NCBI RefSeq assembly: GCF_030272895.1
Contig: NZ_JALRNF010000039.1
Span: 3,910 to 67,909 of the forward strand
Origin: Pseudomonas sp. BGr12
GTDB taxonomy: Bacteria; Pseudomonadota; Gammaproteobacteria; Pseudomonadales; Pseudomonadaceae
Direction of reading: 5' to 3'
DNA: 64,000 nucleotides
Part shown: piece by piece, positions 12,509 to 62,626 of the stretch
Numbering within the stretch: the stretch's first letter is position 1
Layout of the letters: each line of letters begins with the position of its first letter
The notes under the pieces: generated by a model
Told to the model about the DNA's origin: nothing
The model's database searches: none
What the model saw: the letters and a program-made list of their open reading frames with translations, nothing else
Translations under genes and position numbers: made by a program

Positions 12509-14128
12509 TCAGGCCGCCACCTCGGTATTGGGTTCGAAGCTGTCCGCCCGGGCCATCTGCCACATCCGCGAGTAGAACTCGCCACTGATGTTGCCGCTGA
12601 GCAATTCGCCGGGCTTGAGGAACACATGCATCTGCGAGAACAGCTTGATCTCCGTGGCCGAGACCCGGCGCACCAGGTGTCTGGCCTCCAGTTGCGAAGG
12701 GTGTTCGAGGCCGGCGGCGGCGAGCATTTCGGCCAGTGCCTTGAGGGTGCTGTGGTGGAAGTTGAAGACCCGCTGGGCCTTGTCCGGCACCACCAGGGCG
12801 CGCTGGCGCAGGGCATCCTGGGTGGCGACGCCGGTCGGGCATTTGTTGGTGTGGCAGCTCTGCGACTGGATGCAGCCAATGGCGAACATGAAGCCGCGCG
12901 CGGCGTTGGCCCAGTCGGCGCCGATGGCCAGCACGCTGGCGATGTCGAAGGCACTGACGATCTTGCCGCTGGCGCCCAGCTTGATCTTGTCGCGCAGGTT
13001 CAGGCCCACCAGGGTGTTGTGAACGAACAGCAGGCCTTCGCGCAGGGGCACGCCGATATGGTCGGTGAACTCCACCGGGGCGGCGCCGGTGCCGCCTTCC
13101 TTGCCGTCGATGACGATGAAGTCCGGCAGGATCCCGGTTTCCAGCATGGCCTTGGCGATGCCCATGAACTCCCAGGGGTGACCCAGGCAGAACTTGAAGC
13201 CCACCGGCTTGCCGCCGGACAGCTCACGCAAGCGGGCGATGAACTGCATCATCTCGATCGGGGTGGAGAAGGCGCTGTGGCGGGAGGGTGAAATACAGTC
13301 TTCACCCATGTTCACCCCACGGGTCTCGGCGATTTCGCGGGTGACCTTGTGCTTGGGCAGGATGCCGCCATGGCCCGGCTTGGCGCCCTGGCTCATCTTG
13401 ATTTCGATCATCCGCACCTGGGGGTCGCGGGCCTGTTCGGCAAAACGCTCGGGGTCGAACTGGCCGTCGGCAGTGCGACAGCCGAAGTAACCGCTGCCCA
13501 GCTCCCAGGTCAGGTCTCCGCCGTTTTCGCGGTGATAGGGGCTGATGCTGCCTTCGCCGGTGTCATGGGCAAAGTTGCCCAGTTTGGCGCCCTGGTTCAG
13601 GGCGCGGATGGCGTTGGCGCTGAGCGAGCCGAAGCTCATGGCCGAGATGTTGAACACCGACGCCGAATAGGGCTGGCTACACTGCGGGCCGCCGACGGTG
13701 ACGCGGAACGAGGCTGGGTCGCTCAAGGGCGCCGGGCGCATGGAGTGACCGATGAACTCGAAACCCGACTGGTAGACATCGATCAGGGTGCCGAACGGCT
13801 TGTCGGAGGCTTCGTTCTTGGCCCGGGCATAGACCAGCGAGCGCTGCGCCCGGGAGAAGGGCAGGGCGTCGCTGTCGGCTTCGAGCAGGTACTGGCGGAT
13901 TTCCGGGCGGATGCCTTCGACCAGGTAGCGGATGTTGCCCAGGATCGGGTAGTTGCGCCGTACGGCGTGGCGACTTTGCAACAGGTCGAATACACCGATG
14001 AGGCTGAGGATGGCGGTGGTCAGGGTGAACGGCCACAGCCATTCATGGTGAAGGAAAGGCAGGCTCACCAGGGTGAACAGCACACAGGCGGCAAAAAAGG
14101 CGTAGCGGCTGAGAAGTGACAGGCTCAT
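12509..14128 (-). CDS. FMN-binding glutamate synthase family protein, membrane-anchored
   Basis: A 539-residue protein with two hydrophobic N-terminal helices (residues 7-25 and 30-50), followed by a GltB-type FMN-binding TIM-barrel domain (about residues 140-480). Visible motifs include GAKPGHGGILPKHKV, DGKEGGTGAAP and the Fe-S cysteines of CIQSQSCHTNKCPTG (C-x5-C-x4-C), as in the synthase domain of glutamate synthase. It lacks the glutaminase and GXGXG domains of true GltB, so it is a stand-alone oxidoreductase of unproven substrate. The membrane anchor suggests an electron partner in the membrane. It is monocistronic. Confidence 0.83.
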   Translation of the reverse strand: MSLSLLSRYAFFAACVLFTLVSLPFLHHEWLWPFTLTTAILSLIGVFDLLQSRHAVRRNYPILGNIRYLVEGIRPEIRQYLLEADSDALPFSRAQRSLVYARAKNEASDKPFGTLIDVYQSGFEFIGHSMRPAPLSDPASFRVTVGGPQCSQPYSASVFNISAMSFGSLSANAIRALNQGAKLGNFAHDTGEGSISPYHRENGGDLTWELGSGYFGCRTADGQFDPERFAEQARDPQVRMIEIKMSQGAKPGHGGILPKHKVTREIAETRGVNMGEDCISPSRHSAFSTPIEMMQFIARLRELSGGKPVGFKFCLGHPWEFMGIAKAMLETGILPDFIVIDGKEGGTGAAPVEFTDHIGVPLREGLLFVHNTLVGLNLRDKIKLGASGKIVSAFDIASVLAIGADWANAARGFMFAIGCIQSQSCHTNKCPTGVATQDALRQRALVVPDKAQRVFNFHHSTLKALAEMLAAAGLEHPSQLEARHLVRRVSATEIKLFSQMHVFLKPGELLSGNISGEFYSRMWQMARADSFEPNTEVAA

Positions 14129-14271
14129 GCGGGCTCCTTGCGATGGCGCGGTCAGGCTCAGGGCCTGGGCAATCCTTGACCTTAGCCCGGTTGGGCGCGC
14201 TTGCGCCAGTGCGCAAAGATGAAGCTTTGCGCCGGGTCAGCTGAAGAATGATTCATCGGCAAGCCGGGGAT

Positions 14272-17200
14272 TCACCAAAGCCCCGGCTCGCGGATCAGCC
14301 GGTCACGCACTTCACCCTGTTCCTGCGGATCGACCTGAGGCTCGTAGTGCAGCTTGCCGGCCACCAGGCTCGCGACCGCCACGCCATCGCGGTAGAGCAG
14401 GCGATTGCCGCTCAGGGCCGGCACCTTGGTGCCGGGCAGCAAGGTGCCGACCAGGTTCAACGGGTCGCTGGCGCTGAGGGCGACCAGGGCGCCGTCCGGC
14501 GCCCGCCGGCGCACTTCACGCAGCAACGCCACGGCTTCGGGCAAGGCAAACTGTTCGCCGGCCAGGCCGCTGATGAAGCGCCCGCCACGGATTTCGCCGC
14601 GGGCTTCCAGGCGATGGTAGCAGCGCAGCAGCTCACGCCAGCCGGGCAGCCAGTCGGCCTCACGTTCCAGCAGTCGCCAGCAGATCACGCCATAGCGGCG
14701 CAGCAAGGTACGGGCGATGTGCTCCAGGCTCTCATCGCGGTTGTCGACGGCGCTGGCCTTGCGCAGCAGGGCCCAGCGCCCGGCGTCCTCCATGCCGCCG
14801 AACAGCGGCCCGCGCCCACGGCGATGGCTGCGGCCCTGACGCTTGCTGGCCGGGGTGATCAAGGCGCGCAGGCCGGCGAAGCTGTCGGCGCTGACCAGGC
14901 CGGCGGCCACCAGCTCCTGCAGGGCGGTTTCCAGTTCGCTGGGCAGCAGGTGGGCGTCTTGCACCAGCTCGTCGAAGAACAAGGCGCCGTGTTCGCCCAG
15001 GGCCGTGTGCACGCGCTGCGCCCGGGGGCTCAGGTGTTCGCTGTCCAGGGCCGGGCCGAAGGCGCGCCACAGGTTCAGGCGCGGGCGCGGCAGCAGCACC
15101 AGCGGCGTGCTGCGCAGGGTGCTGCTGGCCGCGACGGGGGCCAGGCGCGCCCAGACGTGCTTGCCGGCGCGGCAGCTCTCGTCCAGCCAGCGCGGGCTGT
15201 AGTCCTTGATCCGGCTGGGCAGCAGATCGCTTTCCCAGGCACTGGCTGCCGCCGGATAGCCCTCGAACCGCTCCAGCACTTCGCTGACTGCTGCCGGACC
15301 TTGCAGGCGTGTGGCGGGCGAAAGGTGCTGCCAGTCGAACAGAAAACGCATGAAGTCCTGCAGGCTGACCGGTTCGATCTCCCGGCGCAGGCGCTTGACC
15401 GTGTAGCGGTGGATGCGTGCCAGCAGATGCCGCTCGCACCATTGCAGGTCCTGTTGGCCCGGGCTGAAGTAGCCGCGCATCACGTAGCCTTCCGTCTCCA
15501 GGCGAACCAGGGCCTGTTCCAGCGCATTGACCGGCAAGCCCAAGGGCGCGGCGATCTGCGCCAGGGTCAGCGGACCGAAGCCACTCAGGCGCGCCCGCAA
15601 TACCTCGACCAGCGCCGTGTCACTGTCCACGGAGTGCTCGAACCCCGGCAGCGGGGGAACATCCGGGGACATGTCAGCCTGCGGATAAACCGCCCGTAGC
15701 ACCATCAGGCGTTCGCGGGCCAGCCACAGGCTGGGCTGTGCAGCAAGGTGCAGGCAAACCGCCCGCCCGGCAGTGGCAAGCTGTGTCAGCCAGGCCTGCC
15801 AGTCGTGATGGGCCTGCACTTCTTCCTGGCTGATACAGGCCAGGCTCATCAGTGCCTCATGCATCTCGTCGCAGCGGCTGGGGGCAGGCCAGGCTTCGGC
15901 ACGTACTGCGCTGATGGCCTCGGGGTCCAGGGCGCCCAGGTCATCACTGCTCTGCACCTCGCTCCAGCGCCGGTTGAGCACGGCCTGGGTGCGGCGTTCT
16001 TCCAGCGGCGCATCGTCGAGAAAGGTGTAGGGCCGGGCATTGAGAATGGCCGCAGCCAGGGGCGAAGGGGCTGGCAGGTCGCGGCTGATCAGGCTGACCT
16101 GGCCCTGCTCGATACGTCGCAGCAAGGCCAGCCAGCCGTCGCAGTCCATGGCCTGGTGCAGGCAGTCGTCGAGGGTTTGCTCCACCAGTGGATGGTCGGG
16201 AATCTGCCGTTCGCCGACGAGGTTTTCCAGACAGGCGATCTGGTCGGGGAACACCGCGGCGATCAGGTCTTCGCTTTTCATGCGCTGGATCTGTGGCGCC
16301 ACCTTGCGTCCGCCGACATAGCGCGGCAAGGCCAGCGCAGTGCCGGCATTCCAGCGCCAGCGCACGCCGAACAAGGGCGCATCGAGCAGGGCCTGGACCA
16401 GGATCGATTCGGCCGTGTTGCTATGCAGATAGCGCCACACCTCGTCCAGGGCGAAGCTGTGGCTGGCCGACAGCGACAGGACGATGGCATCTTCGCTGGC
16501 CGCCGCTTGCAGTTCGAAGTTGAAGGTGCGGCAGAAGCGCTTGCGCAGGGCCAGGCCCCAGGCACGGTTGATGCGGCTGCCGAAGGGGGTGTGGATGATC
16601 AGCTGGGTGCCGCCGGATTCGTCGAAGAAGCGCTCCATGATCAGGGTCGACTGCGAGGGCAGGGCACCGAGCACCTGGCGGGTACGGCTCAGGTAGTCGA
16701 GCAACTGGCCGGCGCTGCCCGGGTCCAGGCCGATCTCTTGTTGCAGCCAGTCGAGCGTCGGCTGCAACCGGCCTGCCGATTCAGCCAGGCGCCGGTCGAT
16801 CTCGCCTTGCAGGCGGGCCACACCGAAGGACAGTTCATCGCTGCGCCCCGGGGCCTCGCCCAGCCAGAACGGAATGCTCGGCGGCAGGCCCCGGGCGTCC
16901 TCGACCCGGACCTTGCCGCTTTCCACCCGCAGGATGCGGTAGGAGGTGTTGCCCAGCTGGAAGATGTCGCCGGCGATGCTCTCCACGGCGAAGTCTTCGT
17001 TGACGCTGCCAATGTTCAGGCCCTGGGGTTCGAGCAGCACGGCATAGTCGGCGTTGTCGGGGATGGTGCCGCCGCTGGTCAATGCGGTCAGCTGGCTGCC
17101 GCGCCGCCCGCGCAGGCTGGCGTTGACTGCATCGCGGTGCAGGTAGGCGCTGCGCACGCCCTGGCGGCCGTTGAAGCCTTCGGCGAGCATGCGCAGCAAG

Positions 17201-18564
17201 GCCTGGTAGTGCGCCTGGTCGAGGTCGGCGTAGGGCATGGCCTGGCACAGGCACTCGAACAAGGCCTGCTCCTGCCAGGGCTGGCAGCTGACCTCGGCGA
17301 CGATCTGCTGGGCCAGCACGTCCAGTGGCGCCCTGGGCACGTGCAGCAGGTCCAGCTCGCCGCGGCGCACGCAGTCGAGCAGCGCCGCGCATTCGATCAG
17401 GTCGTCCCGCGACAGGGGAAACAGACGGCCTTTGGGCGTGCCCTCGACCTGGTGGCCGGCGCGCCCGACCCGCTGCAGAAAGGCGGCGATCGAGCCAGGC
17501 GTGCCGATCTGGCAGACCAGTTCGACTTCGCCGATGTCGATGCCCAGTTCAAGCGAGGCGGTGGCCACCAGCACCTGCAACTCTCCGCGCTTGAGGCGCT
17601 GCTCGGCATCCAGGCGATGTTCCTTGGCCAGGCTGCCGTGGTGCGCGGCGACCGCGTGCAGGCCCAGGCGCTCGCTCAGGTGCCGGGTCAGGCGCTCGGC
17701 CAGGCGCCGGGTGTTGACGAACACCAGGGTGGTGCGGTGTTCGCGGGCCAGCGCTGCCAGGCGGTCATAGACCAGCTCCCAGACATCCGTGGCCATCACC
17801 GCAGCCAGCGGCACCGGCGGTACCTCCAGGGCCAGGTCGCGGGTGCGGGCATGGCCGATATCGACGATGGCACAGGTGCGTCCGCTGCCCATCAGAAAGT
17901 CCGCCACACGCTCCACCGGGCGTTGGGTCGCCGACAAGCCGATGCGCCGCAAGGGGCGGCCACACAGGGCCTGCAAACGCTCCAGGCTCAGCGCCAGGTG
18001 GCTGCCGCGCTTGTTGCCGGCCAGGGCATGGATCTCGTCGACGATCACCGTGTGCACGCTTGCAAGGCCCTGGCGCCCGGATTCCGAGCCCAGCAGCACA
18101 TACAACGACTCCGGCGTGGTCACCAGGATATGCGGCGCCTTGCGGCGCATGGCCGTGCGTTCCTTCTGCGTGGTGTCGCCGCTGCGCACCGCGGTGCGGA
18201 TGTCCAGCGCCTCGGCGCCGTGCTCGATCAGGGCTTCATTGATACCGGCCAAGGGCGCCTGCAGGTTGATCTGGATGTCGTTGGACAGCGCCTTGAGGGG
18301 CGAGACATAGACCACCTGGGTCTGGTCCGGCAGCTCGCCGCCGGCCAGGCCCTGCTCGAACAGTTCATCGAGAATCGCCAGGAAGGCGGTGAGGGTCTTG
18401 CCCGAACCGGTCGGTGCGGCCACCAGCAACGACTGGCCACGGCGAATCAACGGCCAGGCCCGGGCCTGGGCGGCCGTCACGGTGGCAAAGCGACGCTGGA
18501 ACCAGGCGCGTACGGCGGGGTGGAAGGCGTCCAGTGCCGGGTGGTTCAGGGCGGGCAGGTTCAT
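14272..18564 (-). CDS. lhr: ATP-dependent helicase Lhr (long form)
   Basis: A 1430-residue superfamily-2 helicase of the bacterial Lhr-type. N-terminal RecA domains hold Walker A APTGSGKT (about residue 50), VIVDEIHALAGNKRG (motif II), SATQRP (motif III) and QRVGRAGHQVEG (motif VI). The Lhr winged-helix and core domains follow, then the long Lhr-CTD typical of full-length bacterial proteins. Lhr translocates 3'-5' on single-stranded DNA and is linked to DNA repair; some homologs also carry uracil-DNA glycosylase activity in the CTD. It lies alone on the minus strand, 143 bp from the glutamate-synthase-like gene. Confidence 0.92.
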   Translation of the reverse strand: MNLPALNHPALDAFHPAVRAWFQRRFATVTAAQARAWPLIRRGQSLLVAAPTGSGKTLTAFLAILDELFEQGLAGGELPDQTQVVYVSPLKALSNDIQINLQAPLAGINEALIEHGAEALDIRTAVRSGDTTQKERTAMRRKAPHILVTTPESLYVLLGSESGRQGLASVHTVIVDEIHALAGNKRGSHLALSLERLQALCGRPLRRIGLSATQRPVERVADFLMGSGRTCAIVDIGHARTRDLALEVPPVPLAAVMATDVWELVYDRLAALAREHRTTLVFVNTRRLAERLTRHLSERLGLHAVAAHHGSLAKEHRLDAEQRLKRGELQVLVATASLELGIDIGEVELVCQIGTPGSIAAFLQRVGRAGHQVEGTPKGRLFPLSRDDLIECAALLDCVRRGELDLLHVPRAPLDVLAQQIVAEVSCQPWQEQALFECLCQAMPYADLDQAHYQALLRMLAEGFNGRQGVRSAYLHRDAVNASLRGRRGSQLTALTSGGTIPDNADYAVLLEPQGLNIGSVNEDFAVESIAGDIFQLGNTSYRILRVESGKVRVEDARGLPPSIPFWLGEAPGRSDELSFGVARLQGEIDRRLAESAGRLQPTLDWLQQEIGLDPGSAGQLLDYLSRTRQVLGALPSQSTLIMERFFDESGGTQLIIHTPFGSRINRAWGLALRKRFCRTFNFELQAAASEDAIVLSLSASHSFALDEVWRYLHSNTAESILVQALLDAPLFGVRWRWNAGTALALPRYVGGRKVAPQIQRMKSEDLIAAVFPDQIACLENLVGERQIPDHPLVEQTLDDCLHQAMDCDGWLALLRRIEQGQVSLISRDLPAPSPLAAAILNARPYTFLDDAPLEERRTQAVLNRRWSEVQSSDDLGALDPEAISAVRAEAWPAPSRCDEMHEALMSLACISQEEVQAHHDWQAWLTQLATAGRAVCLHLAAQPSLWLARERLMVLRAVYPQADMSPDVPPLPGFEHSVDSDTALVEVLRARLSGFGPLTLAQIAAPLGLPVNALEQALVRLETEGYVMRGYFSPGQQDLQWCERHLLARIHRYTVKRLRREIEPVSLQDFMRFLFDWQHLSPATRLQGPAAVSEVLERFEGYPAAASAWESDLLPSRIKDYSPRWLDESCRAGKHVWARLAPVAASSTLRSTPLVLLPRPRLNLWRAFGPALDSEHLSPRAQRVHTALGEHGALFFDELVQDAHLLPSELETALQELVAAGLVSADSFAGLRALITPASKRQGRSHRRGRGPLFGGMEDAGRWALLRKASAVDNRDESLEHIARTLLRRYGVICWRLLEREADWLPGWRELLRCYHRLEARGEIRGGRFISGLAGEQFALPEAVALLREVRRRAPDGALVALSASDPLNLVGTLLPGTKVPALSGNRLLYRDGVAVASLVAGKLHYEPQVDPQEQGEVRDRLIREPGLW

Positions 18565-56316: not shown

Positions 56317-56955
56317 TCAATCGTCCGAGGTTTTGTGCTTGTATTCGCACAGGTCTTCGATCCGGCAGCTTCCGCAACGGGGTTTGCGCGCCTGGCACAC
56401 ATAACGGCCATGCAGGATCAGCCAGTGGTGGGCATCGAGCAGGTAGGCCTTGGGAACGAACTTCAACAGTGCCTTCTCGACCTCAAGTACAGTCTTGCCC
56501 GGGGCAATGCCCGTCCGGTTGCTGACCCGGAAAATATGCGTATCGACCGCCATGGCCAGTTGCCGAAATGCGGTATTGAGCACTACGTTGGCGGTCTTGC
56601 GACCGACGCCAGGCAGGGCTTCGAGGGCTTCACGGGTTTCCGGCACCTGGCTGCCATGCTGCTCGATCAACAGGCGGCAGGTTTCTATCACGTTGCGGGC
56701 CTTGCTGTTGTACAGGCCGATGGTCTTGATGTACTCCGACAGTCCGTCTACGCCCAGCGCATAAATGGCTTCGGGGGTGTTGGCGATCGGGTACAGTCTG
56801 GCGGTTGCCTTGTTCACGCTGACATCCGTGGCCTGGGCAGAGAGGATCACCGCGATCAGCAATTCGAAGGGCGTGGTGTAGGCCAGTTCGGTCTTGGGGT
56901 CAGGATTGTCTTCATGCAGCCTGCGAAAGATTTCCAGGCGTTTTGCGGCATTCAT
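56317..56955 (-). CDS. nth: endonuclease III
   Basis: A 212-residue DNA glycosylase/AP lyase removing oxidised pyrimidines. The helix-hairpin-helix with catalytic Lys is in LPGVGRKTANVVLNTAF, the catalytic Asp in AVDTHIFRVSNR. The C-terminal [4Fe-4S] loop has Cys-x6-Cys-x2-Cys-x5-Cys (CQARKPRCGSCRIEDLC). It is the last gene of the rnf operon, 4 bp after rnfE, as in E. coli rsxE-nth. Confidence 0.96.
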   Translation of the reverse strand: MNAAKRLEIFRRLHEDNPDPKTELAYTTPFELLIAVILSAQATDVSVNKATARLYPIANTPEAIYALGVDGLSEYIKTIGLYNSKARNVIETCRLLIEQHGSQVPETREALEALPGVGRKTANVVLNTAFRQLAMAVDTHIFRVSNRTGIAPGKTVLEVEKALLKFVPKAYLLDAHHWLILHGRYVCQARKPRCGSCRIEDLCEYKHKTSDD

Positions 56956-56959
56956 GGGG

Positions 56960-57484
56960 TCAATGCTTTCCTTGACGGCGTGAGGGGGCTCGCTGCAGGC
57001 AAACCCGGTTGTAAAGGGCGAGCAACAGGCCCAGCAGGATCAAGCCACCTGGCAGCAGCGCGGCCAGGCGCACACCTGCCCAGCCTGCCAGTACTTCGCG
57101 GCTGACGCCCAGGGCGATGCACAGGGCGGCAAAGCCCAAAAGCACGCTGCCGGTTTCGCGCCAGCGACGGCTGTGACCCAGGGCATGTTCGAATACCAGG
57201 CATTGTACGGCGATCAACGCCGGGTAGGGACTCAGTGCTTGATACAGGGGAAGGGCCCAGGCGCGCAGGCTCAATTCCAGGCAGGTAACCAGTGCGGCGG
57301 CCAGCAGCACGCTGGCGGTCAACTGGCTGGCGGGGGAGAGGCCCTGGTGCAGGGGCTTCATGGCCAGGTGGTGCACCGCAATCAGCGCCACGCTGCAAGC
57401 GCCAATGACGCTGGCGTTGACCAGCGTGCCGGTTGCGCCGAGCAGCGGGGCAAGGGATACGGCGGCCAGCCATTGTCTATTCAT
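56960..57484 (-). CDS. rnfE: Rnf/Rsx complex subunit E, reduced
   Basis: A 174-residue polytopic inner-membrane protein aligned to RnfE/RsxE, but shorter than E. coli RsxE (231). The N-terminus AAVSLAPLLGATGTLVNASV aligns with the RsxE segment around LLGLCPLLAVT, so the first Cys ligand of the intramembrane [2Fe-2S] cluster is replaced by Ala. A Cys in the second repeat (IAVQCLVFEHAL) remains. Its start overlaps rnfG by 8 bases. Operon order and family support the call; the cluster loss is my alignment by eye. Confidence 0.75.
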   Translation of the reverse strand: MNRQWLAAVSLAPLLGATGTLVNASVIGACSVALIAVHHLAMKPLHQGLSPASQLTASVLLAAALVTCLELSLRAWALPLYQALSPYPALIAVQCLVFEHALGHSRRWRETGSVLLGFAALCIALGVSREVLAGWAGVRLAALLPGGLILLGLLLALYNRVCLQRAPSRRQGKH

Positions 57485-58094
57485 GAGGGGCGCCCTCGAG
57501 CAATGGCTGGCGGTGTTCGTCGAAGTAACGCAATGCATCGTGCACCGCCTGGATCACCGCACGGGATGTCACGGTGGCACCGGCCAACTGATCGAACTGA
57601 CCGTTGTCACGTTTCAGCGCCCAGGCCGAATCGGGCAGTGTCTGGCGGCTGGCGCCGGTGAAGGTTTGCAGCCAGTGGTTGCCCGGTTCCACCAGTTTGC
57701 CGCCCAGCCCCGGCGTTTCCTGTTGCCGCATGACCTTGGTGCCGATCAGGCGGCCCTGGCTGTCGACGGCGATCAGCAGTTCCAGTGGTCCACCATAGCC
57801 TTGGCTCTGGCTGTGCAGTACCACGGCGCTGGGCTTGCCGGCCAGGGTGGCGCGATAGCCGGCCAGTAGCTGGCTGTGATCGAGTGACGGATTATCCAGT
57901 ACCAGGGGGGATTGCAGGGGTTGGTTGTCGTAGCTCGATGGCGGCAGGACGCTAAGCCAGGTTTGTGCCTTTAGCTGTTGTTGCGCCTGGGCAATAGCTC
58001 CGGCGCTGAAGTGTTGCCAGGCCACGACGCTACCCAGGCTCAGCAGGCCGACCAGCAACAGCAGCGACGCACTGCGCAGCGCTGCACGGTTCAT
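57477..58094 (-). CDS. rnfG: Rnf/Rsx complex subunit G
   Basis: A 205-residue protein with one N-terminal membrane helix (ALRSASLLLLVGLLSLGSVV) and a periplasmic FMN-binding domain. The flavinylation motif is present as AGATVTSRAV, with the Thr that takes covalent FMN. GGPLELLIAVDSQGRLIGTK and HxETPGLGGK-type segments (RQQETPGLGGKLVEPGNHWL) are family-typical. It overlaps rnfD and rnfE by a few bases. It should pass electrons within the membrane complex. Confidence 0.87.
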   Translation of the reverse strand: MNRAALRSASLLLLVGLLSLGSVVAWQHFSAGAIAQAQQQLKAQTWLSVLPPSSYDNQPLQSPLVLDNPSLDHSQLLAGYRATLAGKPSAVVLHSQSQGYGGPLELLIAVDSQGRLIGTKVMRQQETPGLGGKLVEPGNHWLQTFTGASRQTLPDSAWALKRDNGQFDQLAGATVTSRAVIQAVHDALRYFDEHRQPLLEGAPHE

Positions 58095-59077
58095 GTTGAC
58101 ACCGCCTGTCGACGTTCGGCCCAGCGCTCCAGGGCCGGTACGCCGAGGTTCATCAGCAGCACGGCGAAGGCGCCGCCATCGGGATAGTTGCCCCAGGTGC
58201 GGATCAGGTAGATCAACAGGCCCACGCCCGCGCCGAACAGCAGCCTGCCCCAGGGTGACCTGGGACCGGAGACGGGTTCTGTGGCGATGAAGAACGCCGC
58301 CAGCATGGTCGAGCCACTGAGCAGATGCAGCAGCGGCGAGCCATTGGAATCCGAGCCCGAACCGTTCCAGCACAGCAGGCTGATCACGAACAGGCTGGCC
58401 AGCAGGCCGACCGGGGTGTGCCAGCTGATGACCTTGCGTTGCAGCAGCAACAGGCCTCCGGCGAGGAAGGCCAGGTTGACCCATTCGCTGCCCTTGCCAC
58501 CGAAATGACCGAAGCCTGGGTGGCTGGCGAACAGCTCATCCATGGTCAGGCTGCGGTTGTGGCGCAAGCCGTCGAGGATCGTAGCCTGTGCCCAGGCATC
58601 GGGCTGTTCGCCGATGCTCAGGCCGAATACATGCTGCAGGCTGGTGCCCAGGTCGAGCAGTTGCGTGCCCGGCCACTGGGTCATGTGCTGCGGGAAGGTC
58701 AGCAAGGCCACCGCGTAGCCCAGCATGGCCGGGTTGAACGGGTTCTTGCCGACGCCCCCATACAGGTGCTTGCCCAGCAGCATGGCACTTGCCGTGGCGG
58801 TTACCGGTACCCACCAGGGCGGGTAGGCGGGCAGGGCAACGGCCAGCAGGGTCGCGCTGACCAGGGCGCTGCCGTCATTGAGCGATGGCAAGACCGGCCG
58901 TTGCTGCAATTTGAGCGCGATCGCCTCGAAGGCCAGGGCGGCGCCGGCACACAGCAACAGATTGAACAGCATGCCCCAACCGTGCTGCCAGAGCAGCACC
59001 AGCACACCTGGCAGGCAGGCCAGCAGCACCAGCAACATGGTGCCGCGCAAGCGTTCACTGAGGTCAGCGGGCTGCAT
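58091..59077 (-). CDS. rnfD: Rnf/Rsx complex subunit D
   Basis: A 328-residue inner-membrane protein with about nine helices, matching RnfD/RsxD. Signature segments are [40 protein letters not shown] and [21 protein letters not shown] candidate covalent FMN site is [12 protein letters not shown], whose Thr aligns with the flavinylated Thr of RnfD. The start at 59077 overlaps the end of rnfB, leaving no room for rnfC, which normally lies between them. Confidence 0.87.
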
Positions 59078-59918
59078 GATCGGTGGCCGGTTGCAAGGCT
59101 TGCAGGCGAGCCTGTGCCTGATCGGCTTCCCGTTCAAGCTCGGCCAGCTGGGCGTGTTGCGCTTCGCTGGGGCTGGCGCCGAAGGCCGTTCTGGCCTTGC
59201 TCAGTTGTGCCCGACTCATGGCAGCGGCAATTTTGGCCTGTTTCAGGGCCGTATCGGCGGCCGCAGCCTTCTGCGCCTTGACCCGTTCGATAGCCGCCTT
59301 GATCGGGTCGTCAGCCACTTCGCTCTGGTTGTTGGTGCTGGCTTGGGCGCTACGCTGGCTACGGGCGGCGCGCTCCGCCTGTTTGCGTGCTTCCTCGCGC
59401 TGCAAGCGGCTATTGCGCAGCTCGAAACGGCGTCGCGCGTGGTTGCGCTTGCTGTTACGTGCTGCCAGGGCATCCGCATCATGGGCAAATCCGCCGACGA
59501 TCGGCACTATGGTGCTGCTGGCGGTCAGCGGTAGCAGGTCGATGCAATCTACCGGGCAGGGCGCCACGCACAGGTCGCAGCCGGTGCATTCGGCGCTGAT
59601 CACCGTGTGCATCAGCTTGGCCGCACCGACGATGGCATCCACCGGGCAGGCCTGGATGCATTTGGTGCAGCCGATGCATTCCGCTTCGCGAATGAAGGCC
59701 ACCTGGGCGGGGGCGCTACCGCGTTCGGTATCCAGGGCAATGACCGGAACCTGCAGCAGGCTGGCCAGGGCCGCGATGGTTTCGCTGCCGCCCGGTGGAC
59801 ATTTGTTGATCGCTTCGCCCTTGGCCAGCCCTTCAGCGTACGGCTTGCAGCCAGCGTGACCGCATTTGCCGCACTGGGTCTGCGGCAGCAGGGCGTCGAT
59901 GCGTTGAATCAGACTCAT
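59064..59918 (-). CDS. rnfB: Rnf/Rsx ferredoxin subunit B with RnfC-like tail
   Basis: A 284-residue protein. The N-terminal four-cysteine [4Fe-4S] domain ([19 protein letters not shown]... NKCPPGG) is followed by two 4Fe-4S ferredoxin motifs ([14 protein letters not shown] and [14 protein letters not shown]). The usual N-terminal membrane anchor of RnfB is missing: the frame starts at [13 protein letters not shown]. After residue ~150 comes a long charged helical tail ([20 protein letters not shown] and [16 protein letters not shown]) like the C-terminal repeats of RnfC/RsxC. It overlaps rnfA by 4 bases and rnfD by 14. Confidence 0.82.
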
Positions 59919-60496
59919 GATGTAAATAATCCGTTGAAGCCGAAAAACGCCAGGGCCATGACGCCTGCCCCGATCAACTCGACAGGCAGGCCACGAAAGG
60001 CCAGGGGTACAGCGTCGTTGTCAGTGCGCCGGCGCAGGTCGGCAAACAGCGCCATGACCAGCCAGAAACCCAGCCCGCCACCCAGGCTCCAGGCCAGGGT
60101 CTGCACTACACCATAGCCCGCTTCGCTGACCTGCAGGCTCAGGCCCAGCAGCGCCACATTGCCCAGCAGCAAGGGCATCAGCCCGGCAAATGGCAGGCTG
60201 GGCAGCGCTCGCGACAACAACCCGAGCACGGGGGCGATCAGCAACGCTGCCAAGGGCAGCAAGACGAACAGGCGCAGGTAGTCGAGTTGCAAGGGCAGCA
60301 ACAGAAAGTGGTACAGCAGTTGACCCAGGTTGGTCGCCAGCACCAGCACCACCAGTGTCGCCAGGCCCAGTGCGTGCAGCCGACGGCGTTCCTGGTCAAC
60401 CGGGTAGTGCAGGGCAGGGTCGATGGCCAGCCCCTGATGCAGGATCAGGTTGTTGATCAGCGCGGCGCTGATCAGGGCCAGGATGAGTTCGCTCAT
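59915..60496 (-). CDS. rnfA: Rnf/Rsx complex subunit A, cysteine-free
   Basis: A 193-residue inner-membrane protein with six helices aligned to RnfA/Rsx[21 protein letters not shown] matches the RsxA start, and [20 protein letters not shown] the end. The protein has no Cys. RsxA normally carries two (in the LGLCPF and TNCAVLG segments) that help hold the [2Fe-2S] cluster shared with RnfE. It is the first gene of the operon. ATG 60496 gives a length equal to E. coli RsxA; an ATG at 60508 would add four residues. Confidence 0.8.
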
Positions 60497-60554
60497 GGGG
60501 GTGCACATTGCCAGGGCTGTTCGCCATTATCCGGCAATGAGGCAAGGATGAGAA

Positions 60555-60580
60555 CGCCCCGGACGCAATCGTCCGGGGCG
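60555..60580. terminator. strong hairpin between metG and rnfA
   Basis: An 11-bp stem CGCCCCGGACG / CGTCCGGGGCG with loop CAAT lies 7 bp after the metG stop. It has no T run on the metG strand, so it may need Rho or act as an mRNA end barrier. Confidence 0.6.
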
Positions 60581-60586
60581 TGGGGG

Positions 60587-62626
60587 TTACTTGATGCGCT
60601 GGCCTGGCTTGGCGCCGCTGTCGGGGCTGAGCAGGTAGATTTCTTCACCGCCAGGGCCTGCGGCCATGACCATGCCCTCGGAGATGCCGAAGCGCATTTT
60701 GCGCGGCTTGAGGTTGGCGATCATCATGGTCAGGCGACCTTCGAGCTTGGCCGGGTCCGGGTAGGCCGACTTGATGCCGGAGAACACGTTGCGTTGCTCG
60801 TCACCGATGTCCAGGGTCAGGCGCAGCAGCTTGTCGGCGCCCTCCACGGCTTCGGCCTTGAGGATCAGGGCCACGCGCAGGTCGACGGCGGCGAAGGTGT
60901 CGAACTCGATCTCGGGCGACAGCGGATCCTTGGCCAGCTCGCCATTGCCGGTGACGACGGAGGTCTGGCTGGCGGCCAGGTCTTCCTTGCTGGCGGTGGT
61001 CATGGCTTCGACCTTGGCCGGATCGATACGGTTCATCAGCGCCTTGAACGGGTTCAGCTTGTGGTTGGTCAGGCGCGTCTGGTGATCGGCCCAGGTCAGC
61101 GGCGCGACATTGAGGAACGCCTCGGCGTCGGCGGCCAGTACCGGCAGCACCGGCTTGAGGAAGATCACCAGCTGGCGGAACAGGTTGACGCCCTGGGCGC
61201 AGATCGCCTGGACCTCGTCCTGCTTGCCTTCCTGCTTGGCCAGCGACCAGGGTGCCTTGTCGGCGATCCAGGCGTTGGCGCGGTCGGCCAGGGCCATGAT
61301 CTCGCGCATGGCGCGGGCAAAGTCACGACCTTCGTAGGCTTCGGCAATGGCCGGGGCAGCGTTGAGGAACGCCTCGGTCAGTTCCGGCGCGGCATCGCCG
61401 TCGACCATGACGCCGTCATTGCCCTTGTGGATGAAGCCGGCGCAACGGCTGGCAATGTTGACCACCTTGCCGACCAGGTCGGAGTTGACCTTCTGCACGA
61501 AGTCTTCGAGGTTCAGGTCGAGGTCGTCGACGCCGCGGCCCAGCTTGGACGCGTAGTAGTAGCGCAGGTATTCCGGCGACAGATGGTCCAGGTAGGTGCG
61601 CGCCTTGATGAAGGTGCCACGGGACTTGGACATCTTCGAGCCGTTCACGGTCAGGTAACCGTGCACGTTGATGCCGGTCGGCTTGCGGTAGCCGGCGCCT
61701 TCGAGCATGGCTGGCCAGAACAGGGCGTGGAAGTTGACGATGTCCTTGCCGATGAAGTGGTACAGCTCGGCCTTGGAGTCCTTGTTCCAGTACGCGTCGA
61801 AGTCCAGTTCCGGACGACGGGCGCAGAGGTTCTTGAAGCTGGCCATGTAGCCGATCGGCGCGTCCAGCCAGACGTAGAAGTACTTGCCCGGCTCGTCGGG
61901 GATCTCGAAGCCGAAGTACGGGGCATCACGGGAGATGTCCCACTCCTGCAGGCCGGCGTCCAGCCATTCGGCGATCTTGTTGGCCACGGCGTCCTGCAGG
62001 GTGCCACTGCGGGTCCACTGCTGGAGCATGGCCTGGAAGTCCGGCAGCTTGAAGAAGAAGTGCTGGGAGTCCTTGAGCACCGGGGTGGCGCCGGAAATCG
62101 CCGACTTGGGGTTCTTCAGCTCGGTGGGTGCGTAGGTGGCGCCGCATTTTTCGCAGTTGTCGCCGTACTGGTCTTCGGCAGCACACTTGGGGCAGGTGCC
62201 CTTGATGAAGCGGTCGGCCAGGAACATTTTCTTGTCCGGGTCGAAATACTGGGTGATCGAGCGGGTGGCAATATGCCCGGCTTCACGCAGCTTGAGGTAG
62301 ATCTGGCTCGACAGCTCGCGGTTTTCTTCGGCGTGGGTCGAGTGGAAGTTGTCGAAATCCACCAGGAAATCGGCGAAGTCCTTGCTGTGTTCGGCCTGGA
62401 CGTCGGCGATCAGCTGCTCGGGGGTGATGCCTTCCTTCTCGGCGCGCAGCATGATGGCCGAACCATGGGCGTCGTCCGCGCAGACATACACGCACTGGTT
62501 GCCGCGTAGTTTCTGGAAGCGCACCCACATGTCTGTCTGGACGTACTCGAGCATATGGCCAAGGTGAATGGAACCATTGGCATAGGGGAGGGCGCTGGTG
62601 ACGAGAATCTGACGTGGCTCGGACAT
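60587..62626 (-). CDS. metG: methionyl-tRNA synthetase MetG
   Basis: A 679-residue class I synthetase. HIGH-type HLGHMLEY is near residue 21, and the zinc knuckle has CPKC and CEKC. The KMSKS loop is [12 protein letters not shown], and a C-terminal tRNA-binding dimer domain ([20 protein letters not shown], then [11 protein letters not shown]) covers the last ~110 residues. Length and domain order are normal. It is divergent from apbC. Confidence 0.97.

Follow-up and report, generated by a model that had tools for sequence, protein, structure and literature searches.

Positions 56960..60496 of a 64,000-nucleotide stretch of the Pseudomonas sp. BGr12 genome (contig NZ_JALRNF010000039.1, positions 3,910 to 67,909; hereafter the window) encode a reduced form of the Rnf complex, which may well serve as a one-way conduit, its RnfD and RnfG flavins linking the cytoplasmic side to or from a periplasmic partner. 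In a complete Rnf complex, according to the accounts cited, electrons cross the membrane twice (PMC12174285; PMC11889175), on a path that leads from ferredoxin through RnfB, the [2Fe-2S] cluster of RnfA and RnfE, the flavin mononucleotide (FMN) of RnfG, the FMN and riboflavin of RnfD, and RnfC to nicotinamide adenine dinucleotide (NAD+) (PMC12174285; PMC9588780). In the window, cluster ligands are missing from the first crossing, RnfB is without its N-terminal anchor, and the NAD end of the second crossing is gone from the operon; RnfD and RnfG are still as recognisable as ever, and ApbE is retained along with them. The locus descends from Rnf, yet we do not file it as an Rnf complex because RnfC, the cluster ligands and the RnfB anchor fail; we call it half-Rnf.

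An earlier note on this DNA, made from the sequence alone, had read the order rnfA-B-D-G-E-nth with overlapping frames, and the positions of the open reading frames (ORFs) and their NCBIfam matches bear this out. The overlaps are 4 nucleotides (nt) between rnfA and rnfB, 14 nt between rnfB and rnfD, 4 nt between rnfD and rnfG, and 8 nt between rnfG and rnfE. Since rnfB and rnfD overlap by 14 nt, there is no space for rnfC between them; its absence from the operon, likewise noted earlier, is thus correct, and an overlooked rnfC within the operon is ruled out. A collection of named loci, the best 80 of 192 relatives, has the order A-B-D-G-E in 80 of 80 and the RnfC body in none, with a 14-nt overlap of rnfB and rnfD in 77; it includes strains of P. 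fluorescens, P. protegens, P. putida, P. chlororaphis, P. koreensis and P. viridiflava. As these 80 separate records have the same layout, an assembly artefact is also ruled out.

The ligands given for the [2Fe-2S] cluster of C. tetanomorphum are Cys25 and Cys113 of RnfA and Cys26 and Cys109 of RnfE, a cysteine site described in the same account as conserved across Rnf and the Na+-translocating NADH:quinone oxidoreductase (NQR) (PMC9588780). Alignment to these sites revealed that three of the four Cys are lost in the window. RnfA (59915..60496, minus strand) has Asp26 for Cys25 and Val114 for Cys113; RnfE (56960..57484, minus strand) has Ala12 at its first ligand site, and retains the fourth ligand as Cys95. 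The earlier note was right that this RnfA is free of Cys (none in 193 residues counted from MSEL) and that RnfE is short (174 residues) with Ala at the first cluster Cys; its description of the cluster site as dismantled holds for three ligands, and the retained Cys95 is a point it omitted. RnfA and RnfE match PF02508 (Rnf-Nqr) with 70.9 and 49.2 bits, and both fall below the cut-offs of their NCBIfam families (TIGR01943, 110.5 against 229.3; TIGR01948, 46.2 against 213.4), with RnfB, RnfD and RnfG above theirs.

The same sites were then compared between 20 canonical operons from relatives and 120 aligned variants, namely the window, the 80 named loci and 39 other loci, some genomes occurring twice. 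Thirty-five of these 39 come from the variant genomes surveyed below, and four (G034, G025, G133 and G072) are of other genera. RnfE counts are out of 116, leaving out L161, L164, L167 and L184 (4 of the 39), where RnfE queries found none. All 20 canonical operons have Cys at each of the four sites. No variant has Cys at the RnfA Cys25 or Cys113 site (0/120 each) or at the RnfE Cys26 site (0/116), and 113 of 116 keep Cys at the second RnfE site. The first RnfA site is Asp in all 81 named and window sequences and in 28 of the 39 others, and the Cys113 site is mostly Ala. No consistent substitute Cys column was found in the variant alignments, the commonest new one being present in 51 of 120 RnfA and 40 of 116 RnfE, which answers the concern raised in the earlier note that other Cys might replace the missing ligands. 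Columns conserved in both the canonical and the variant sets numbered 109 in RnfD, 34 in RnfG, 26 in RnfA and 11 in RnfE. AlphaFold models of RnfA and RnfE were poor (mean predicted local distance difference test (pLDDT) 65 and 73) and did not place Asp26; their top Foldseek matches were Rnf/NQR subunits.

RnfB of the window (here RnfB'; 59064..59918, minus strand) was assigned by tail homology and anchor comparison as the RnfB ferredoxin domains without a membrane anchor, joined to an RnfC-type tail. It scored 212.5 bits against TIGR01944 (cut-off 68.7), and its best NCBIfam match was PRK06991 (RsxB, NF005415), which covers residues 2-280, tail included, at 264.1 bits, slightly below the cut-off of 281. 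We take PRK06991 to be a largely solitary and betaproteobacterial family. The iron-sulfur (Fe-S) motif of 12 Cys is present in the window, in all 111 variant RnfB and in 20 of 20 canonical RnfB, so the retention of these motifs claimed earlier stands. Ahead of the LLPQTQC motif there are 9-17 residues in the 111 variants, and exactly 9 in the 81 named and window sequences; the 20 canonical proteins have 38-42, hydrophobic by eye. By this comparison variant RnfB has no N-terminal membrane anchor. Past the second ferredoxin motif, variant RnfB runs on as the C-terminal tail of RnfC (residues 127-284 of RnfB'; 59067..59540, minus strand). Comparison by hhalign of 81 variant RnfB tails with 19 canonical RnfC tails (the twentieth failed to match the cutting motif) gave a probability of 100 and an E value of 1.9e-53, and five column-shuffled control alignments gave at most 4% probability. 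The window tail itself scored 92 bits against RnfC, with 300 shuffles reaching at most 43.1. Chance resemblance of an Ala/Lys-rich tail is ruled out by this E value and the shuffle controls. At locus L165, RnfB aligns to residues 416-813 of canonical RnfC (E 3e-71). The simplest history would be a deletion that joined the ferredoxin domain of RnfB to the tail of RnfC and removed the RnfC body.

We surveyed 249 genomes, at least 95% complete, from the genus of a close relative of the window's genome (G295). By similarity, 149 of them carry variant RnfA; for 35 of these the Cys sites were read. No RnfC match above 50 bits, the threshold for counting RnfC, was found anywhere in the genome in 143 of the 149; RnfC-profile matches of about 23-28 bits in survey genomes, most of them to one shared part of the profile, were not counted as RnfC, and the matches above 50 bits were covered completely. 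Matches above 100 bits occur in 27 of the 249 genomes. RnfB is missing in 20 of the 149, and nine of nine such loci that were fetched (L150, L151, L154, L156, L157, L159, L160, L171 and L188) show no rnfB frame and keep A-D-G-E. Given these absences, RnfC and RnfB would not be needed by the variant. The earlier note had called for a survey of the joint loss of rnfC and the Cys: ligand loss proved to be lineage-wide, and a wholly Cys-free RnfA, as in the window, occurs in only 18 of 120 variants, so the general feature is loss at the ligand sites. Separately, the loci L316 (genome G316) and L317 (G479) each hold another Rnf set, distinct from the first, whose RnfC is shorter (485 and 548 residues, respectively).

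The flavin sites are retained. RnfD, the flavin-bearing membrane subunit (58091..59077, minus strand; TIGR01946, 352 against a cut-off of 207), has its flavin Thr at position 166, and RnfG, the periplasmic FMN subunit (57477..58094, minus strand; TIGR01947, 164.1 against 102), at position 174. The RnfD site is Thr in 120 of 120 variants and the RnfG site is Thr in 116 and Ser in 4, in agreement with the earlier reading that both flavinylation Thr remain. ApbE is the enzyme that attaches FMN, and FMN_bind is the domain of RnfG. ApbE was found in 149 of 149 genomes with variant RnfA and 30 of 30 with canonical or other RnfA, in 12 of 59 with RnfB alone and in 1 of 11 with none. The genomes with FMN_bind are precisely the 179 with an RnfA-type match; it is a single copy in 113 of the 149 variant genomes, and RnfG of the window is the only FMN_bind match of its own genome. 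These counts indicate that ApbE is retained where its visible targets, RnfG and RnfD, remain, and is mostly lost with them. Within the class of canonical or other RnfA, the four genomes G298, G260, G435 and G496 combine an RnfA-type match with ApbE and FMN_bind but match RnfC nowhere strongly; about 3 kb separates FMN_bind from ApbE in G298.

Electrons must take another route than in Rnf because the operon has no rnfC and the RnfA/RnfE ligands are dismantled, with the flavin Thr and the Fe-S motifs of RnfB kept. The different electron entry and route proposed in the earlier note is thus supported by the features of the locus; against it stands an intact rnfC elsewhere in the genome, described below. 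In the reading that we prefer, RnfD and RnfG, with their predicted flavins, would provide a single membrane crossing for electrons, linking the periplasm with a partner in the cytoplasm or on the quinone side, and RnfA and RnfE would persist as a scaffold for RnfG. The donor would be RnfB', presumably soluble and ferredoxin-like with its RnfC tail, where it is present, or, by analogy with NQR, a quinol; the acceptor would be a periplasmic protein, and the flow could be in either direction. More speculatively, and with less confidence than in the conduit itself, this could be an Fe-S-free and NADH-free Rnf in which a two-way redox ion pump has become a flavin-only conduit, where the Asp at the Cys25 site, midway through the membrane, and the Glu that takes the place of the riboflavin/Na+ Asp of RnfD may couple the single crossing to protons. 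The RnfB-RnfC tail fusion, as a soluble protein, and the RnfC-RnfD pair described next, as a separate module from NADH to the membrane, would then be reused parts.

The earlier note had asked for a search for rnfC elsewhere in the genome or a second complete rnf set. An intact rnfC does exist, on another contig (C182), and encodes 466 residues with two 4Fe-4S motifs by eye (RsxC, 424 bits against a cut-off of 345). It stops at the end of the core (profile position 436 of 556), without the long tail. It overlaps a second rnfD, which reads ATDPV, that is, with the canonical Asp; the pair lies at 13861-16205 of locus L007, with apbE divergent at 16345-17610. No other rnf genes were found near the pair, nor was a second complete set found in the genome, the only two Rnf-Nqr proteins detected being those of the window. 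Another PF13375 match in the genome (L002) was rejected as RnfC, being a homologue of pyruvate carboxylase subunit B/oxaloacetate decarboxylase alpha. Ten of the 249 genomes carry the pair, five alongside canonical and five alongside variant rnf, at 78-92% RnfC identity; apbE is its neighbour in each of the variant genomes, and none was found next to it in the canonical ones. It could be argued that the pair completes the complex in trans, in which case the change would be one of gene order alone and NADH would continue to supply or withdraw electrons, and the intactness of this RnfC, the conservation of the pair, the neighbouring apbE and the single FMN_bind protein of the genome fit such a view. 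We consider it unlikely: the pair has its own RnfD, also accompanies canonical rnf and is unable to restore the RnfA/RnfE cluster, and the detached rnfC is not needed by the variant in general, as RnfC is missing, at the 50-bit threshold, from 143 of the 149 variant genomes. Most simply, the pair is a module of its own; for the variant as a whole it does not represent the missing subunit.

A metal centre might instead persist in RnfA/RnfE through other ligands, with RnfA Asp26, RnfE Cys95 and perhaps RnfE Cys68 passing electrons from RnfB to RnfG. The constancy of Asp26 in the named and window sequences, of Cys95, of Cys68 (106 of 116 variants) and of the 12 Cys of RnfB suits this proposal, which we nevertheless hold to be doubtful. 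The Asp is missing in 11 of the 39 other variants and the RnfA Cys113 site is mostly Ala; Cys68 is found in all 20 canonical RnfE as well and does not figure among the listed ligands; the RnfB anchor is lost, and 20 variant genomes have no RnfB at all. Alternatively, the locus could be a relic, in which electron transport by RnfA, RnfE, RnfD and RnfG has ceased and the RnfB ferredoxin is the one part that counts, heading toward an RnfB-only state. Such a state exists: of the 249 genomes, 59 match RnfB but have no match of the RnfA type, and in nine of nine loci read (L210, L212-L219) RnfB with an RnfC-type tail stands alone between metG and nth, L210 having a leftover frame of 51 residues before nth that matches RnfE at 41 bits. 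RnfE is moreover short and fast-evolving, and the variant genes are relaxed relative to metG. However, median ratios of nonsynonymous to synonymous substitution rates (dN/dS) in 13 variant pairs were 0.102 for rnfB, 0.127 for rnfD, 0.138 for rnfG, 0.182 for rnfA and 0.286 for rnfE (metG, 0.05), those of rnfA, rnfD, rnfG and rnfE being far under 1, and 0.14-0.21 for the rnf genes in nine canonical pairs (metG, 0.11 in eight pairs), all pairs being hand-picked. The variant rnf genes are under purifying selection, and plain pseudogene decay is ruled out by ratios well under 1 despite some relaxation relative to metG. The retained flavin Thr, ApbE in every variant genome, and the loss of RnfB with the rest kept in 20 of 149, opposite to decay toward RnfB, also make the relic improbable. 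Finally, the system could still reduce SoxR, as an Rsx system without NADH in which RnfB reduces SoxR and the membrane part supplies power. The accounts cited attribute SoxR reduction in E. coli to RsxABCDGE together with RseC and ApbE (PMC12174285; PMC11729352), and the Fe-S motifs of the variant RnfB are intact. Without the cluster ligands and the RnfB anchor, however, there is no visible link from the membrane flavins to RnfB, and RnfB and A-D-G-E were lost separately among genomes, which leaves this explanation with a slim chance.

Several observations weigh against the single-crossing flavin conduit that we favour. RnfB persists in 129 of the 149 variant genomes, and in the window's genome the detached RnfC could serve the complex. 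Neither a donor nor an acceptor was found, the neighbours metG, nth and argG being uninformative. Some relaxation is real: the ratios to metG in variants against canonical pairs are 3.6 and 1.3 for rnfA, 5.7 and 1.9 for rnfE, and 2.5 and 1.4 for rnfD, so that relative to metG the variants are less constrained than the canonical genes, RnfA and RnfE most. The flavinylation motif of RnfD is off the consensus D-x-x-[S/T]-G-A-[S/T] (PMC12052999), reading DAWAQAT in the window; the Gly position holds Gly in only 3 of 120 variants, where 101 have Gln, and in 19 of 20 canonical proteins. Asp248 of C. tetanomorphum RnfD is described as adjoining riboflavin and a proposed Na+ site (PMC9588780); this site is Asp in 20 of 20 canonical RnfD and in five PDB chains, and Glu in 119 of 120 variants (Glu267 in the window). 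With this replacement at the riboflavin site, the flavin on the cytoplasmic side may be altered. As for ApbE, the Fisher p value of 9e-36 overstates its link, as related genomes are not independent, and 12 genomes without RnfG still carry it.

A phylogenetic tree of RnfD separated 19 canonical proteins from 60 variants, with support of 95/94 for the canonical branch and 81/68 for the branch uniting the variants. As the variant-uniting branch is weak, a single origin of the variants is no more than likely. Explaining the lack of RnfB on this tree takes four changes, of which supported branches force at least three. In a quick metG tree, six variant operons fell among 14 canonical ones. The rnf operons may have been exchanged between species at the metG-nth site, which is a hint only, since metG adjoins the operon. 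Separately, metG of the window is 96% identical to that of G295, which bears another genus label, and 85% to that of G017, which is labelled as the species of the window's genome and has a canonical rnfABCDGE; the genus label given to the window's genome in this set therefore looks wrong.

The operon is flanked upstream by metG (60587..62626, minus strand; NF001100, 981.8 against a cut-off of 587) and downstream by nth, encoding endonuclease III (56317..56955, minus strand; TIGR01083, 277.7 against 211.7). A GC-rich inverted repeat, seen by eye between metG and rnfA at about 60545-60586, could terminate metG transcription. The starts of rnfD, rnfG and rnfE given above were set by homology, the longest ORFs starting further upstream.

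Compared with the Rnf complex (RnfABCDGE; PDB 8ahx, 7zc6 and 9eri), half-Rnf has homologous A, B, D, G and E, which follow the gene order of canonical operons in relatives and likewise sit between metG and nth, and it shares with Rnf the flavin Thr of RnfD and RnfG and the 12-Cys motif of RnfB; Rnf/NQR chains are the solved relatives of RnfA, RnfD and RnfE of the window. It differs in having no RnfC in the operon, in the loss of three of four RnfA/RnfE Cys and of the RnfB anchor, and in the gain of an RnfC tail on RnfB and of the Asp to Glu change in RnfD. The Na+-NQR (NqrB, C, D and E core) has the same membrane core. NQR is described as having no RnfB and a cofactor-free relative of RnfC, NqrA, its core passing electrons to ubiquinone (PMC12174285). 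The cysteine site is described as conserved in Na+-NQR (PMC9588780), unlike in the variant, whose operon has no gene for NqrF or NqrA. Closest to our reading are the NQR/RNF-like clusters with flavinylated proteins for which a unidirectional single crossing was proposed (Meheust et al. 2021, PMC8238504), these also using one of the two Rnf/NQR crossings. As presented there, they combine NqrB/RnfD with an NqrF-type NAD domain (PF03116 with PF00175) and come mainly from Actinobacteria and the candidate phyla radiation (CPR) (PMC8238504). In the variant, by contrast, no NAD domain is attached, PF03116 being the only Pfam match of RnfD, and RnfA/RnfE homologues remain. No description of this Rnf variant was found in the literature searched, most subscription papers lying outside that search.

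Metabolic models of Pseudomonas could be misled by the database names of some variant RnfA, 'electron transport complex protein RnfA' or 'NADH:quinone oxidoreductase'. With other subunits, the variant resembles the steps of loss and fusion by which NQR is proposed to have arisen from Rnf (PMC4014512). In current structures, as cited here, the [2Fe-2S] cluster of RnfA/RnfE is given a role in both electron transfer and Na+ pumping (PMC11889175; PMC12174285). A common variant under selection, with the ligands and the NAD end gone and with ApbE and the flavin sites retained, would be a natural dissection of this machine, bearing on what RnfD and RnfG are capable of alone and on what role RnfA and RnfE have without redox.

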